Source of the DNA: Planctomycetota bacterium
GTDB taxonomy: Bacteria > Planctomycetota > Planctomycetia > Pirellulales > Pirellulaceae
DNA: 34,231 bases
Reading direction: 5' to 3'
Assembly: GCA_024276655.1 (NCBI GenBank)
Contig: JAJRWU010000059.1
Coordinates: 1-34,231 of the forward strand
Shown here: one piece after another, positions 255 to 26,629 of the stretch
Layout of the letters: the number at the start of each line of letters is the position of its first letter
How positions within the stretch are numbered: the first letter of the stretch is position 1
The notes under the pieces: generated by a model
Databases searched by the model: none
The model's input: the letters and a program-made list of their open reading frames with translations, nothing else
Told to the model about the DNA's origin: nothing
Position numbers and translations under genes: made by a program

Positions 255-356
255 TCAATCGGGAAACGCCGTGTTGGAAACGCTGTCCGGCAGTTTCAAA
301 ACATTAAAGTTGATGATCAGTCCCAGCGGAATATCGAGGAGTTTCATGTAGCTTAG
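255..356 (-). pseudogene. GxxExxY protein, C-terminal remnant
   Basis: The reverse strand reads LSYMKLLDIPLGLIINFNV, then LKLPDSVSNTAFPD and a stop. GxxExxY proteins, common in planctomycetes and of unknown function, end with a helix of the form LLxYLKLxxxxxGLLINFNV, so this is probably their 3' end. The frame continues upstream only into repeat A (354-462), which is not GxxExxY sequence. The gene is therefore truncated at the repeat boundary and surely inactive. The family call rests on about 30 residues. Confidence 0.5.
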
Positions 357-462
357 CATCGAGCGGAAAATTAGTGTCGTAGCCATGCTCGCCAGAGCGT
401 GGGATGGTTCACCGCTCACCCACCGTCTGGCGACGATGGCTACACAAATGCGACCGTTATTT
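354..462 (+). repeat. Repeat A, copy 1 (hairpin repeat, right end truncated)
   Basis: Matches 30564-30687 directly and 23696-23820 in reverse. The core is a 25-nt arm at 379-403 (GTAGCCATGCTCGCCAGA then GCGTGGG) facing 419-443, with a 15-nt loop. Two internal dinucleotides (GC in the left arm, CG in the right) do not pair and give two symmetric 2x2 internal loops. The right flank TTATTTAT runs directly into repeat B instead of the TCGAGCGGTGCTTA end seen in the other copies. Confidence 0.85.
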
Positions 463-542
463 ATACCTTCTAACACAACTTGGTAGGTCAGCATCAAACT
501 CCGTGTGTGAAATGCCAAACAGGGGTTATGTTAGGAGCTCTT
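463..542 (-). repeat. Repeat B, copy 1
   Basis: About 80 bp whose reverse complement is nearly identical to 6195-6276. It runs from GAGCTCCTAACATAACCCCT to CAAGTTGTGTTAGAAGGTAT when read on the reverse strand. The repeat shows partial dyad symmetry at its ends (CCTAACA and TGTTAGAAGG). No coding potential is recognised. It abuts the truncated end of repeat A copy 1, so it may mark an insertion or deletion junction. Confidence 0.8.
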
Positions 543-4778: not shown

Positions 4779-4883
4779 TATACTTCACACGGCTAACAAT
4801 GGCTCGTTTAACGGCAAGCCGAAGGCGGCTGCGTTTGGCGGCAAGGTCGAAAAACGCAGCCGCCTTCGGCTTGCCGTTAAACG
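4779..4883 (-). mobile_element. Hairpin element D2, MITE-like (one end missing)
   Basis: A perfect 32-bp inverted repeat (4805-4836 against 4852-4883) with a 15-nt loop. The outer end is TATACTTCACACGGCTA at 4779-4795, which matches the reverse complement of the IS630 end in 16 of 17 bases. Compared with D1, the stem differs by a compensated change: GGCGGCTGC pairs with GCAGCCGCC, where D1 has GGCGACTGC and GCAGTCGCC. The far end is lost. After 4883 the sequence turns into GAAAAAGCCGGCCTTCT, half of a G-type palindrome. An open frame running through the hairpin into hisE is accidental. Confidence 0.65.
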
Positions 4884-4947
4884 AAAAAGTTTGAAAAAGC
4901 CGGCCTTCTGGTTCGAGATATCGTTGCTGTTCAAACAACCTCCAGGA

Positions 4948-18817: not shown

Positions 18818-19645
18818 CTAGGAAGCAATTTCAGTTTGGTTCGGTTTTTCCATCGCCTCATGGTTGGCGGCGGCGTCGGGATACGCGCCGCGAATGCGGT
18901 CGTAGCCGTGGTCATGGAGTTCCTTGGCTAGTTCGACGCCGTTGCCCGTTTCCACGATCCGCCCGCCAAGCATGACGTGCGTGTAGTCGGGATGGTTGTG
19001 CTCCAGCAGTTTGTCGTGGTGGGTGATGATCAGCAGGCCCATATCGGCGCCGCCAATATCGGCAATGCTCAGGCTGGCCAATCGAACGGCGTCGGCGTCG
19101 AGGCCGCTATCTGTTTCATCGAGAATGGCGAACTTGGGTTGCAGCATGGCCAGTTGCAAGATTTCAGCCCGCTTCATTTCGCCGCCGGAGAAGCCGTCGT
19201 TGACATAACGGCGGGCAAACTCAGGATCGATCGAGAGCTGCTCCATGCGGCTGCGCAATTCCTTGCGAAATTCTCGCATGGGGATCAGGTCTTCGCCTTC
19301 CTTGCGTTCGGGATTACGCACGTTGGTTGTTGCGTGCCGGAGGAAGTCGGCCATTTTCACGCCGGGAATCGCGACCGGCCGCTGGAAGGCCATGAACAAA
19401 CCGGCTCGCGCACGTTCATTGGGCGCCATTTCCAGAATGTTGGCGTCGTTGAGCGTGATCGCGCCTTGCGTCACTTCGTATTTGGGGTGGCCCATGATAG
19501 CCATGCCCAACGTACTCTTTCCCGAGCCGTTTGGGCCCATGAGGGCGTGCGTTTCACCGCGTGTCATTTTCAGATTCACGCCGTGGAGGATCGGTTTTCC
19601 TTCCACCGAAACGTGCAAGTTGGTAATTCGGAGGGTTTCAGTCAT
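18818..19645 (-). CDS. sufC: Fe-S assembly ATPase SufC
   Basis: ABC-type ATPase of the SufBC2D complex that drives conformational change of the scaffold. It has Walker A GPNGSGKST (residues 37-45), a Q-loop in FMAFQRPVAIPG, signature FSGGEMKRAEILQ, Walker B KFAILDETDSGLD and the H-loop in LLIITHHDKLL. The Asp-Glu-Thr-Asp-Ser-Gly-Leu-Asp stretch is typical for SufC. The frame opens at TTG 19669, but MTETLRITNLHVSVEGKPIL at ATG 19645 is the normal start. The C-terminus (about 20 residues after DRIRGAYPDAAANH) is slightly longer than usual. It precedes sufB by 12 bp. Confidence 0.97.
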   Translation of the reverse strand: MTETLRITNLHVSVEGKPILHGVNLKMTRGETHALMGPNGSGKSTLGMAIMGHPKYEVTQGAITLNDANILEMAPNERARAGLFMAFQRPVAIPGVKMADFLRHATTNVRNPERKEGEDLIPMREFRKELRSRMEQLSIDPEFARRYVNDGFSGGEMKRAEILQLAMLQPKFAILDETDSGLDADAVRLASLSIADIGGADMGLLIITHHDKLLEHNHPDYTHVMLGGRIVETGNGVELAKELHDHGYDRIRGAYPDAAANHEAMEKPNQTEIAS

Positions 19646-19705
19646 CGATATCAACGCAAAAGCTCCCAACCAGTTTTCGGAAAAAAGGAAAAACGCATCG
19701 TGAGT

Positions 19706-20347
19706 TTATTTAATCTTTTGATGGCTTTGCAGCGGCTTGCCATCGGCTGGCGCCGCCACATACCCCGTGTGGTGCGGAATCGGCAGTTCGTCTTCCACTT
19801 TCATGCCTGGCCGGCCCAAAAGCCCTTGCCCCAGAAAACTACCGCCGCGAGACGACTCCTGCCGAGCGATTTTGTGTCCTCTGATTTTGTCTTGAATGCG
19901 CATCAGGCCTTCTAGCAACGCTTCGGGACGCGGCGGGCAGCCCGGAACATAAACGTCGACCGGAACCACTAAGTCGACCCCCTTCACCACGTGGTAGCCC
20001 CACTTGAAATAGGGGCCGCCGCCCACGGTGCAGGCGCCCATCGCGATGACAAATTTTGGATCGGGCATTTGGTTGTAGAGCCGTCTGACCCGACTGGCCA
20101 TTTTGTAGGTGACCGTGCCGGCGACAATCATTAAGTCGGCCTGACGCGGCGTGGCGCGAAAGGCGCCCGCGCCAAAGCGGTCGATATCGTAGCGGCTGGC
20201 GCCGGTCGCCATCATTTCGATCGCGCAACACGCCAAGCCAAACGTCATCGGCCAAACGCTCGATTCTCGCGCCCAGTTAATCGCCTGCTCAACCGATGTG
20301 GTGAACACGCCTTCTTCAAAGCGGCCTTCAATCCAGGGTTCTGTCAT
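19706..20347 (-). CDS. nuoB: NADH-quinone oxidoreductase subunit B (orphan copy)
   Basis: 213 residues. NuoB of complex I holds cluster N2, the last [4Fe-4S] cluster before quinone. All four ligands are visible: Cys40-Cys41 in [10 protein letters not shown], Cys106 in GACTVGGG and Cys137 in [14 protein letters not shown]. The C-terminal ~45 residues (after [13 protein letters not shown]) are extra compared with a minimal NuoB and may be lineage-specific. No other nuo gene is in the window. It is embedded between sufR (127 bp upstream) and sufC (60 bp downstream) on the same strand, so it probably shares control with Fe-S assembly. Whether it is the only nuoB in the genome is unknown. Confidence 0.93.
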
Positions 20348-20474
20348 TGTTGTTTCATGCCCGAAACGGAGTGTTTGGAAATAGGGTTAGCAGTCCGTCT
20401 ACTATACCAATTTCATCCGCCCGCCCGCCATGGGCCGCTGCGCCGGAATCCCCGACAAAACCACGCATGGCGGC

Positions 20475-21158
20475 TTAGTTTCTACTGGCCTCGAACGTGC
20501 AACAAGCGTCGCCATCGAGACGGCACTGGCTCAATTGCACCTTTGTATTAAGTAATTCCGAAAACACCATTCGCTCCAGGCTACAAATGGCGCGATCTTT
20601 TTCAGCCAAGTCAGGGTAAGGGCACGCCCAAACGGAGAGCACGGGGAAATCGACCGAAGCCCCGCCGTTTTTCGCCCCGCCATTTTTCTCCCCACTGTTT
20701 TCCACCGTGCCGGCGCCGCATCGCACGCTCATCGGGAGCTGACGCTCTGCAAAAAGTGCTTGCACCTCTAACATCCGTTCCTCAACAGTTTCGCCAGACA
20801 CTTCACCGGCATAAAGGCTGGCTAAGCGTTGCGACAACCTCGAAATCAACCCTTGCTGCACCTCAGCATCCTCGATGGCACGAATTTCCTCCCACAAGGC
20901 GATGGCTAGGTCGGCGAAGTTGGTCCCCGCTTTTTTTCTGCCCTTCGACGTCAACCGATACGAATGGACCGGCCGGCCCCGCCCCCGATTTACAGCCACG
21001 CGGTCAACATAACCACCTGCCATAACCCGGGTTAGTCGCTGCCGAACTGCCGTCGCCGTGACAGACAATGCCTCCGCCAGCTCCACCACTGTCATGGCGT
21101 CGCGCATGCGAAGCAAATCGAGAAGCGTCGAATCGGAAGACACTAATGGTTCATTCAT
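20475..21158 (-). CDS. sufR: SufR-type Fe-S-sensing transcriptional repressor
   Basis: 227 residues. Residues ~10-75 form a DeoR/MarR-like winged helix (LLDLLRMRDAMTVVELAEAL, SVTATAVRQRLTRVMAGGYV, GRGRPVHSYRLTSKGR). The C-terminal domain has CPYPDLAEKDRAIC (Cys-X12-Cys), followed by a Cys in QLSQCRLDGDACC. These cysteines fit the SufR pattern that binds a [4Fe-4S] cluster. SufR represses the suf operon when clusters are plentiful. An insert SGEKNGGAKNGGAS near residue 155 looks like a replication-slippage product. It is the first gene of the cluster, transcribed with nuoB and sufCBD or from its own promoter, and divergent from the AGCS gene. Confidence 0.82.
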   Translation of the reverse strand: MNEPLVSSDSTLLDLLRMRDAMTVVELAEALSVTATAVRQRLTRVMAGGYVDRVAVNRGRGRPVHSYRLTSKGRKKAGTNFADLAIALWEEIRAIEDAEVQQGLISRLSQRLASLYAGEVSGETVEERMLEVQALFAERQLPMSVRCGAGTVENSGEKNGGAKNGGASVDFPVLSVWACPYPDLAEKDRAICSLERMVFSELLNTKVQLSQCRLDGDACCTFEASRN

Positions 21159-23698: not shown

Positions 23699-23820
23699 CA
23701 CCGCTCGATAAATAGCGGTCGCATTTGTGTAGCCATCGTCGCCAGACGGTGGGTGAGTGGTGAACCATCCCACGCTCTGGCGAGCATGGCTACGACACTA
23801 ATTTTCCGCTCGATGCTTAG
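23696..23820 (-). repeat. Repeat A, copy 2 (most complete)
   Basis: 125 bp, inverted relative to the other copies. Arms are 23729-23753 and 23769-23793, with the same GC/CG non-pairing dinucleotides. The outer ends TAGCACCGCTCGATAAAT and, on the other strand, TAAGCATCGAGCGGAAAAT share the complementary word CCGCTCGA/TCGAGCGG, so the unit has its own terminal dyad. Its first three bases are the stop codon of the symporter gene. Confidence 0.85.
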
Positions 23821-23899: not shown

Positions 23900-23939
23900 T
23901 GGGCGGCAAAGTGTGTTCCCGCCCCATTTTTTCGAGGCT

Positions 23940-24977
23940 ATGGTGCGAGTTTTTTTGTATGAATTTATCACCGGAGGCGGCTTGCTTACCGCAGGCGAAG
24001 GTCCGCCCGCCGGCTCCCTGCTGCAAGAGGGCGCCGCCATGTTGGCGGCGCTCGCGGAAGATTTTTCCCGTATCTCGGGCGTTACTGTTGATGTGTTGCA
24101 CGATGCCCGCCTGCCCGAATTCGACCTCCCCCGGCGGCGCGTGTGGCGCGTTTCTCAGCCGCAAGACGAACTGCGTCTGTTCAAGCGTTTATCGGCCGAA
24201 GCCGACGTCACCGTGCTGATCGCACCCGAGACCAACGGCCTGCTCACCCGCCGTGTTCAGCTTGCCGAAGCCGCCCACGCGCGGCTGCTCTCGCCTGGTT
24301 CGACGCTGGTGGAATTGGCCTCCGATAAAAATCGCACCGCCGCGTATCTGGCTGTGCGGGGCATTCCCGTTCCTCGCGGCGAGGTGTTGCAGCCGGGCGC
24401 GCCTTTGCCGATCGATTGCCCCACGCCGTTTGTTTGCAAACCGGCGCGGGGCGCTGGGTCGGAGGGCGTGGCGCTGCTTCAAAGCCGCGACAATTGGCGC
24501 CCCGCCGAGCCGCCAACACACCAGCGGATTGAAGCCTACTGCCCGGGAATCCCCGTGAGCTGCGCCTGGATTGGCGGAGCACACGTGCAAATTTTGGAGC
24601 CCTGTTTACAATATTTGAGCGACGATGGTCGTTTCACCTACCAAGGCGGTCGACTCCCGTTAGAGGCGGGTCTGCGGCGGCGAGCCCGTGCGCTCGCCCG
24701 GCGCGTGGCGGAGGCGCTGCCCCCGGCAAGCAGCTATATTGGCGTCGACATGGTTCTGGGCCGAGCGTCTGACAACAACACACATCACGATGTCGTGATT
24801 GAAGTAAATCCTCGCCTAACCACTTCGTATGTCGGCTTGCGGGCGGCGTGTCGAGGTAATCTGGCGGAAGCCATGTTGCACGCTCGGGCCGGCAAATCGA
24901 TGGACCTCGACTTTTCGCCCGGCTGTTGGGAATTCGACGCCTCGGGCAATGTCTCGCAGTTGCAGGACGACCGGTAG
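23940..24977 (+). CDS. ATP-grasp ligase, MfnD-like (tyramine-glutamate ligase type)
   Basis: 345 residues from ATG 23940 (MVRVFLYEFITGGGL). The frame opens earlier at 23913, but homology begins at VRVFLYEFITGGG. It has an ATP-grasp layout: N-terminal domain to about 115, a DKNRTAAYLAVRGIPVPRGE start of the central domain, FVCKPARGAGSEGVALL as the glycine-rich nucleotide loop, and the C-terminal metal site VVIEVNPRLTTSYVGLR with the typical E-x-N-P-R. ATP-grasp proteins of this kind occur in H4MPT/methanofuran clusters. In methanogens MfnD joins glutamate to tyramine. The gene leads a three-gene cassette, with 15 bp to the next. The assignment rests on the fold motif plus neighbours. Confidence 0.82.
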   Translation: MVRVFLYEFITGGGLLTAGEGPPAGSLLQEGAAMLAALAEDFSRISGVTVDVLHDARLPEFDLPRRRVWRVSQPQDELRLFKRLSAEADVTVLIAPETNGLLTRRVQLAEAAHARLLSPGSTLVELASDKNRTAAYLAVRGIPVPRGEVLQPGAPLPIDCPTPFVCKPARGAGSEGVALLQSRDNWRPAEPPTHQRIEAYCPGIPVSCAWIGGAHVQILEPCLQYLSDDGRFTYQGGRLPLEAGLRRRARALARRVAEALPPASSYIGVDMVLGRASDNNTHHDVVIEVNPRLTTSYVGLRAACRGNLAEAMLHARAGKSMDLDFSPGCWEFDASGNVSQLQDDR

Positions 24978-24992
24978 CACGGAAAATCTCTC

Positions 24993-26036
24993 ATGGCTTG
25001 GCTGGGTTTGGATATTGGCGGCGCGAACATTAAGTGCGCCACCGCTGGCGGGTTCGCCCAATCGCGCGCGTTCCCGCTGTGGCAAGAGCGGCGGCGCTTG
25101 CCCGAAACGCTGGCCAGCATGTTTTCCAAGATCGAATCTGACGGCGTTGCTTACGATGGCGTCGTCCTGACCATGACCGGCGAGTTGGCCGACTGTTACG
25201 CCGACAAAGCGGAGGGAGTCGCGCATATTTTGGAGAGTGTTTCTCGGGCCGTGTTGGGACGCCGTATTTTGGTTTATCTGACCGACGGGCGGTTCGTAGG
25301 TTTGGAGGAGGCTCGGCAAGAAGCGTATTTGGCGGCGGCGTCAAACTGGCGGGCGCTCTCGCAATTCGTGGCCAGATTCAGCGCCGGGCGACCGGCGGTG
25401 CTGGTTGATATTGGCTCCACCACCACCGATATCATTCCCATCGCCCATGGGCGCCCGGCCACGACTTCGCGCACCGATACGAACCGGCTGCAACGCGGCG
25501 AGCTGATTTATACCGGCGTTTCTCGAACGCCGGTTTGCGCCGTTCTGCAACAGACGAACTATCGCGGCGGGCGCTGCCCCTTGGCTAAGGAGTGGTTCGC
25601 CACAATGCACGATGTGTACCTTGTTTTGGAAGACCTGCGGGAAAATCCGCTCGCTCGCGATACCGCCGATGGCCGTCCTCAAACCATGGCGGCGAGCGTC
25701 GCTCGGCTGGGCCGCGCCCTTTGCGCCGACCAGCGGGAATTCGATCTGCGCGATGCCCGCACGCTGGCCCGCACTGCCGCCGTGGCGCAACAGGAAGAAC
25801 TTCTGCAAGCTTTGCGGCAAGTGGTTTCCGGCCAGGCGAATTTTCAGATGGCGGTGCTTTCCGGCGAGGGAGAATTTCTGGCCGACCGACTCATCCAACA
25901 AGCCCAACGCGCAGGTATGCTACCGCCTGATTTGGCAATCGTTTCGCTGAAAGATAAAATCGGCGAGGCGGAATCTCGCTGCGCGCCGGCTCATGCTTTG
26001 GCGGTGTTGGCGGAGGAGCAATTCCCATTGCCATGA
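24993..26036 (+). CDS. H4MPT-linked C1 transfer pathway protein, MfnF-like (hydantoinase-like)
   Basis: 347 residues with an ASKHA/hydantoinase-A-like ATPase fold. N-terminal [20 protein letters not shown] is the first phosphate loop, [20 protein letters not shown] follows, and [20 protein letters not shown] is the second. [17 protein letters not shown] follows the latter. I recognise this as the family named H4MPT-linked C1 transfer pathway protein in methylotrophs and planctomycetes. The archaeal counterpart MfnF makes the ether bond joining tyramine and furan units of methanofuran. It ends in a 4-nt overlap (ATGA) with the kinase gene, so the two are coupled. Confidence 0.85.
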
Positions 26037-26629
26037 ACCACTTACGCGTGGTGAAAGTTGGCGGTAGTTTACTGGAATGGCCAGGGCTGCGCCCTGCGTT
26101 GGATTCTTGGTTAGCGAGCGATCCGACGCCCGCCGTTTTGATTTGCGGGGGAGGGCGCCGGGTCGAGGCGGTGCGCTGTTCGTGGCGAGTGCGGAAGCTC
26201 ACCCAGCAGGCGGCGCACTGGCTTTGTATTGAGGCCATGGAAACCACCGCCCGGTTACTGGCTGAAAATATCAGCGCCGTTCTGACCGACGCCCGCCAAG
26301 AATCGGAGTTGCGTCAACAGGCCCGGCGGCATGGCCGAGTGGTTGTTGATGTCGCGCCTTTCCTGCGAAATGTCGAACCGATCATGGCCGGCCCTGCGCT
26401 GCCGCAAAACTGGAGCGTCACGAGCGATTCCATTGCCGCCCGCCTAGCCCAATGGCTACAGGCCGAACAACTCGTGTTGTTGAAATCGGCCGACCCGCCA
26501 CAAGGCGACTGGCAAAGTTGGGCCGATGCCGAGTATGTCGACACATGGTTTCCCCGAGCGGCCGCCGACTACGGCGGCGCTGTTAGGGCGGTGAACCTGC
26601 GAAGCCGAGCATTCGACCAGCGCCCATAG
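26033..26629 (+). CDS. Amino-acid-kinase-fold kinase, MfnE-like
   Basis: 198 residues, short for the aspartate/glutamate/uridylate kinase fold. VVKVGGSLLEWPG at residues 6-18 is the first ATP loop (K-x-G-G-S), AVLICGGGRRVEAVR the second glycine-rich loop, and TSDSIAARLAQWLQAEQLVL then LKSADPP the nucleotide-binding C-terminal block. Archaeal MfnE of this family phosphorylates 5-(aminomethyl)-3-furanmethanol phosphate to a diphosphate, the partner substrate for MfnF. It overlaps the previous gene by 4 nt and ends the cassette. Assignment is good for the fold and supported by neighbours; the exact reaction is inferred. Confidence 0.82.
   Translation: MNHLRVVKVGGSLLEWPGLRPALDSWLASDPTPAVLICGGGRRVEAVRCSWRVRKLTQQAAHWLCIEAMETTARLLAENISAVLTDARQESELRQQARRHGRVVVDVAPFLRNVEPIMAGPALPQNWSVTSDSIAARLAQWLQAEQLVLLKSADPPQGDWQSWADAEYVDTWFPRAAADYGGAVRAVNLRSRAFDQRP

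Follow-up and report, generated by a model that had tools for sequence, protein, structure and literature searches.

A probable bacterial-type methylofuran synthesis block, Orf1-Orf9-Orf21, in a Planctomycetaceae-related bacterium

Three adjoining genes in a 34,231-nucleotide stretch of DNA (the window) from a Planctomycetaceae-related bacterium very probably form the Orf1-Orf9-Orf21 block that serves methylofuran (MYFR) synthesis in bacteria. Methylofuran is a cofactor that many bacteria use for formaldehyde oxidation. A predicted role in methylofuran or methanofuran synthesis, as the first-pass annotation of this DNA had proposed, is supported alike by the family matches, the content of the genome and the conserved order of the genes. 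The layout given there was also exact when compared with the ORF calls: all three genes lie on the same strand in the order ATP-grasp, MfnF-like and kinase, with a 15-bp gap between the first two and a 4-nt overlap between the last two (Table 1).

Table 1. Position and family assignment of the three genes in the window
Gene product	Position	Strand	Remarks
Orf1/MfnD-like ATP-grasp ligase	23940..24977	+	345 aa; PF02655 + PF18301; best NCBIfam model NF040722 (MfnD)
MfnF/Orf9-like protein, H4MPT-linked C1 pathway family	24993..26036	+	TIGR03123; NF040623 (MfnF)
MfnE/Orf21-like amino-acid-kinase-fold protein	26033..26629	+	PF00696; NF040622 (MfnE)

The ATP-grasp frame spans 23913-24977 when extended to a GTG at 23913 and has an internal ATG at 23940. 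The ATG is probably the better start, because the homologue on QIKY01000176.1 (L025:101-1138, 90% identity) begins with MVRVFLYEF at the matching position, and the ORF there does not reach further upstream.

Directly upstream of the block lies a 113-base intergenic element (23708-23820) which is 97% identical, in inverted orientation, to window positions 352-464; the latter copy is also matched at 92-98% on several further contigs of this genome among the matches listed. Other dispersed repeat families of roughly 80-240 bases, again among the matches listed, recur at 2704-2797, 4804-4884 and 2966-3197/6304-6542. The minus strand at 18818-21158 is an Fe-S assembly neighbourhood that includes a NuoB-like gene. 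Read along that strand, the first gene encodes a SufR-like regulator (below cut-off at 40 bits), the next a NADH dehydrogenase subunit of NuoB type that passes the NuoB subfamily cut-off, and the last SufC (316 bits).

All three proteins matched Pfam families above the curated cut-offs, namely ATP-grasp_3 (E=1.5e-22), Hydantoinase_A (E=2.2e-25) and AA_kinase (E=4.5e-8), with E-values that exclude chance, and the ATP-grasp protein also carries a pre-ATP-grasp domain. The top NCBIfam models were MfnD for the first protein, TIGR03123 followed by MfnF for the second, and MfnE for the third. These are the enzyme types that had been named from the sequence, and an assignment of the three proteins to unrelated families, which had been put forward as the finding that would speak against the proposal, is ruled out. 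The middle protein exceeds the cut-off of TIGR03123 (“probable H4MPT-linked C1 transfer pathway protein”; 282.8 bits vs 244.1). The equivalog cut-offs were not reached by the ATP-grasp protein (52.4 bits vs 400 for MfnD), the middle protein (197 bits vs 520 for MfnF) or the kinase (41.2 bits vs 300 for MfnE). Proteobacterial Orf1 proteins also fall under the MfnD cut-off in four of four cases (48.6-61.3 bits), and a low score is therefore normal for a bacterial member of this family. The earlier assignment stands for family types, order and spacing, but is corrected in that these are Orf1/Orf9/Orf21 proteins of the bacterial kind, whose scores fall far short of the archaeal equivalog cut-offs.

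Sequence matches in the PDB were 3c0b/3cet, a conserved archaeal protein, for the MfnF-like protein (E=1.1e-42), 3df7, a putative ATP-grasp protein (E=6.2e-8), and 7qrh, an aspartate/glutamate/uridylate kinase (E=1.6e-5). The kinase can be aligned to the Azoarcus kinase and two planctomycete homologues, with the common stretches K-x-GGS, GGG, a TSDS-type motif and LLKS/LVKS.

The genome that contains the window (5.96 Mb in 328 contigs, listed as 96% complete) was searched for the rest of the pathway. Matches over cut-off were found for Ftr/fhcD (PF02741, 192 bits; TIGR03119, 390 bits), fhcA (737 bits), fhcC (247.7 bits), mch (391.5 bits), fae (240.7 bits), mfnB (Pfam cut-off; PF04476, 183.7 bits) and a methylene-H4MPT-dehydrogenase-family protein (Mpt_N/MtdB family, PF09176; 117.6 bits). 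Five more TIGR03121 matches and a second fhcC match on contig C282 (33.7 bits) were below cut-off. Among 14 control genomes, the same cut-offs were passed by fhcD, fhcA, fae, mfnB and fhcC in two each, by mch in three and by PF09176 in none. An absence of Fhc, which the first-pass annotation had regarded as decisive against its reading, is rejected, as fhcA, fhcC and fhcD are present; a query with fhcB gave no match on the stretches examined around the pathway genes of this genome. Most of the companions that the annotation had suggested looking for were thus recovered (mfnB, fhcA, fhcC, fhcD, the MtdB-family gene and mch); MfnA gave no match over cut-off.

Profiles that we built from proteobacterial plasmid proteins detected OrfY/MyfA on contig C65 (159.2 bits) and Orf17 (122.3 bits), with a second, weaker Orf17 match on C131 (60.2 bits). 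Next to mch lies the gene of a RimK-type ligase with 215.8 bits on MptN, against a cut-off of 350, and 31% identity to the ligase that likewise adjoins mch in Azoarcus; its position and similarity are as MyfB/Orf5 would be, making it a putative MyfB/Orf5 homologue. On NCBIfam models, the mfnB, orf17, myfB and MtdB-family proteins stay under equivalog cut-offs or give loose matches only: 94-118 bits for mfnB, 103.7 bits vs a cut-off of 179.85 on TIGR00734 for the Orf17 homologue, and weak SDR matches for the MtdB-family protein. The pathway genes outside the window are spread over contigs C270, C323, C75, C45, C264, C93, C65, C282 and C274. The mch-myfB pair excepted, the stretches around them gave no match to further C1 genes from a 21-protein reference set, although the shortness of C65 and C264 (4.5 and 5.3 kb) limits the detection of neighbours there. 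The contig that carries fhcA (C323) also encodes a protein with a weak aldehyde ferredoxin oxidoreductase match (L014:2567-4393; 102.8 bits vs a cut-off of 868).

According to PMC8141765, the ATP-grasp proteins related to MfnD may number two in proteobacteria: MyfA/OrfY and Orf1, the latter being closer to MfnD. The same text describes MyfA as resembling MfnD in part, and as both are ATP-grasp enzymes the protein in the window could be read as MyfA (OrfY), which adds the second glutamate, instead of an Orf1/MfnD-like ligase. We consider this highly unlikely and reject the assignment, since a distinct OrfY is encoded on C65 and an Orf1 profile, built with the window protein among its members, gives that protein 406.6 bits, compared with 38.1 bits from an OrfY profile. 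The MfnD model separates the two in the same direction (52.4 bits for the window protein, 27.8 for the C65 OrfY). In a tree of 25 ATP-grasp proteins (18 Orf1, 5 OrfY and 2 MyfB, with archaeal MfnD left out), the window protein falls inside the Orf1 group (split 93/87; group intact in 89% of 200 bootstrap trees) and OrfY is separate at 100/100. The long OrfY and MyfB branches meet in this tree, as flagged by a program warning, and only the split between Orf1 and OrfY is relied on. By these sequence comparisons, the window ATP-grasp groups with proteobacterial Orf1 and not with MyfA/OrfY. Searched singly against its own genome, it retrieved only itself at E up to 0.01; the OrfY of this genome was found only via the profile search.

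The proteobacterium Azoarcus sp. KH32C has counterparts of all three genes, of the same families and in identical order, in a cluster that comprises orf17, orf1, orf9, orf21 and orf22. On its plasmid pAZKH (L060), the ATP-grasp, MfnF-like and kinase genes are followed by that for (5-formylfuran-3-yl)methyl phosphate synthase (mfnB); the record gives product names, and the orf names were assigned here. The gene order noted in the first-pass annotation is therefore real, but not special to this genome. The Azoarcus proteins are 29-33% identical to those of the window, and their genes overlap by 14 and 10 nt. A further ATP-grasp gene is located nearby, as are fae and mch. The C1 genes of Azoarcus are clustered, whereas those found here outside the block are on different contigs of a draft assembly. 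A contig scan with the MfnF protein gave one locus, QIKY01000176.1 (L025) from the MAG of Planctomycetaceae bacterium isolate SZUA-33, which has the three genes in order with 90-93% protein identity and no difference noted in them.

Across the phylum, we sampled 147 genomes with a completeness of 85 or more, the present one included. TIGR03123 matches occurred in 17 of these and were full-length in 15, again including the present genome; 14 of the 15 were over cut-off. Two genomes (G100 and G112) with only short 20-22-bit matches were left out of the 15, and one (G058) was kept at 235.6 bits, just below cut-off. An Orf1-type ATP-grasp gene directly adjoins mfnF in 12 of the 14 other planctomycete loci. 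The exceptions are L055, where about 290 bases separate mfnF from the upstream end of the contig, and L045, where no ATP-grasp was found adjoining mfnF. The kinase was detected next to mfnF in only three of these 14 loci (L043, L049 and L055). Two planctomycete genomes contain single ORFs of 512 and 516 aa (L049:2260-3798 and L056:9381-10931, respectively) that each match two proteins from proteobacterial C1 clusters, the RFAP synthase and the DUF447 protein, which suggests a fusion.

Plasmid records contained MfnF matches in 35 cases and ATP-grasp matches in only 23. HisA/HisF-like, ATP-grasp and hydantoinase-family genes were found together in all four proteobacterial plasmid loci examined, which had been picked by their ATP-grasp match out of these 23 records. 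The pairing of ATP-grasp and mfnF is common but not universal, because the plasmid search gave no ATP-grasp match for the records with MfnF from Rhizobium (n = 6), Phyllobacterium (n = 4) and Sinorhizobium (n = 1).

The low scores on the archaeal MfnD and MfnE models and the scattering of the remaining pathway genes over many contigs would also fit a remnant or repurposed block, in which the three enzymes serve another pathway and no furan cofactor is made. Such an origin is very improbable: the related MAG has all three frames open as well, at 90-93% identity, the ATP-grasp and MfnF genes remain neighbours in distant planctomycetes, and the cofactor-using fhcA, fhcC and fhcD are present.

If the block functions in MYFR synthesis, its role can be outlined from known pathways. 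Every enzymatic step in this organism is derived from the archaeal and proteobacterial pathway, with the order of steps and the enzyme functions following PMC8141765. The archaeal MfnD, MfnE and MfnF belong to the same enzyme families, with presumably the same chemistry. The furan phosphate produced by MfnB would be aminated (MfnC), and the MfnE/Orf21-like kinase would convert the resulting aminomethylfuran phosphate to the pyrophosphate. The Orf1/MfnD-like ATP-grasp would join L-glutamate to tyrosine or tyramine (as MfnD does for tyramine). The MfnF-like enzyme would then couple aminomethylfuran pyrophosphate to Glu-tyrosine or Glu-tyramine, giving MYFR-Glu1, to which MyfA would add a second glutamate before MyfB lengthens the chain. 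The finished cofactor would serve Fhc in the conversion of formyl-H4MPT to formate. Compared with archaeal methanofuran synthesis, the scores here are far below the equivalog cut-offs and no MfnA is over cut-off; homologues of MyfA and MyfB are present, from which a polyglutamate chain like that of bacterial MYFR would follow.

MfnA bears on whether the core contains tyrosine or tyramine. The MfnA model TIGR03812 gave six matches in the genome, none of them over cut-off. The best match was dropped as MfnA, being a glutamate decarboxylase (TIGR01788, 702.6 bits), and the second (L019), which resembles aromatic amino-acid decarboxylases among others, is a weak candidate for a tyrosine decarboxylase. 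The lack of MfnA does not decide the core type of this genome, because some tyramine-type strains also have no recognisable MfnA homologue according to the passages of PMC8141765 considered here. These passages further call the tyrosine:glutamate ligase of tyrosine-type methylofuran synthesis still unknown, and report that most tyrosine-type strains are without MfnD and that the tyrosine-type producer Methylomicrobium album has a second MfnD-like protein. As no MfnA is over cut-off, we tentatively raise the rather doubtful possibility that the Orf1-type ATP-grasp is the tyrosine:glutamate ligase; planctomycete MYFR could then be tyrosine-type.

H4MPT genes in planctomycetes were reportedly described in 2004 by Chistoserdova et al., a paper cited in PMC5020050 and PMC3505017. 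The statement of the first-pass annotation that Planctomycetes carry such genes is borne out by PMC5020050, PMC3505017 and PMC9874027, in which H4MPT-linked genes of Planctomycetes are already published. Among the papers listed for planctomycetes together with methylofuran, H4MPT, methanofuran or formaldehyde, titles and opening abstract lines mention no measurement of the cofactor in a planctomycete.

The locus is a genuine but ordinary example of an arrangement already seen in other bacteria, and the block reveals no new pathway. It places in a planctomycete lineage most of the H4MPT/methylofuran C1-transfer gene set, including homologues of both glutamate-chain enzymes, and it offers Orf1 as a candidate for testing which amine enters the planctomycete cofactor.
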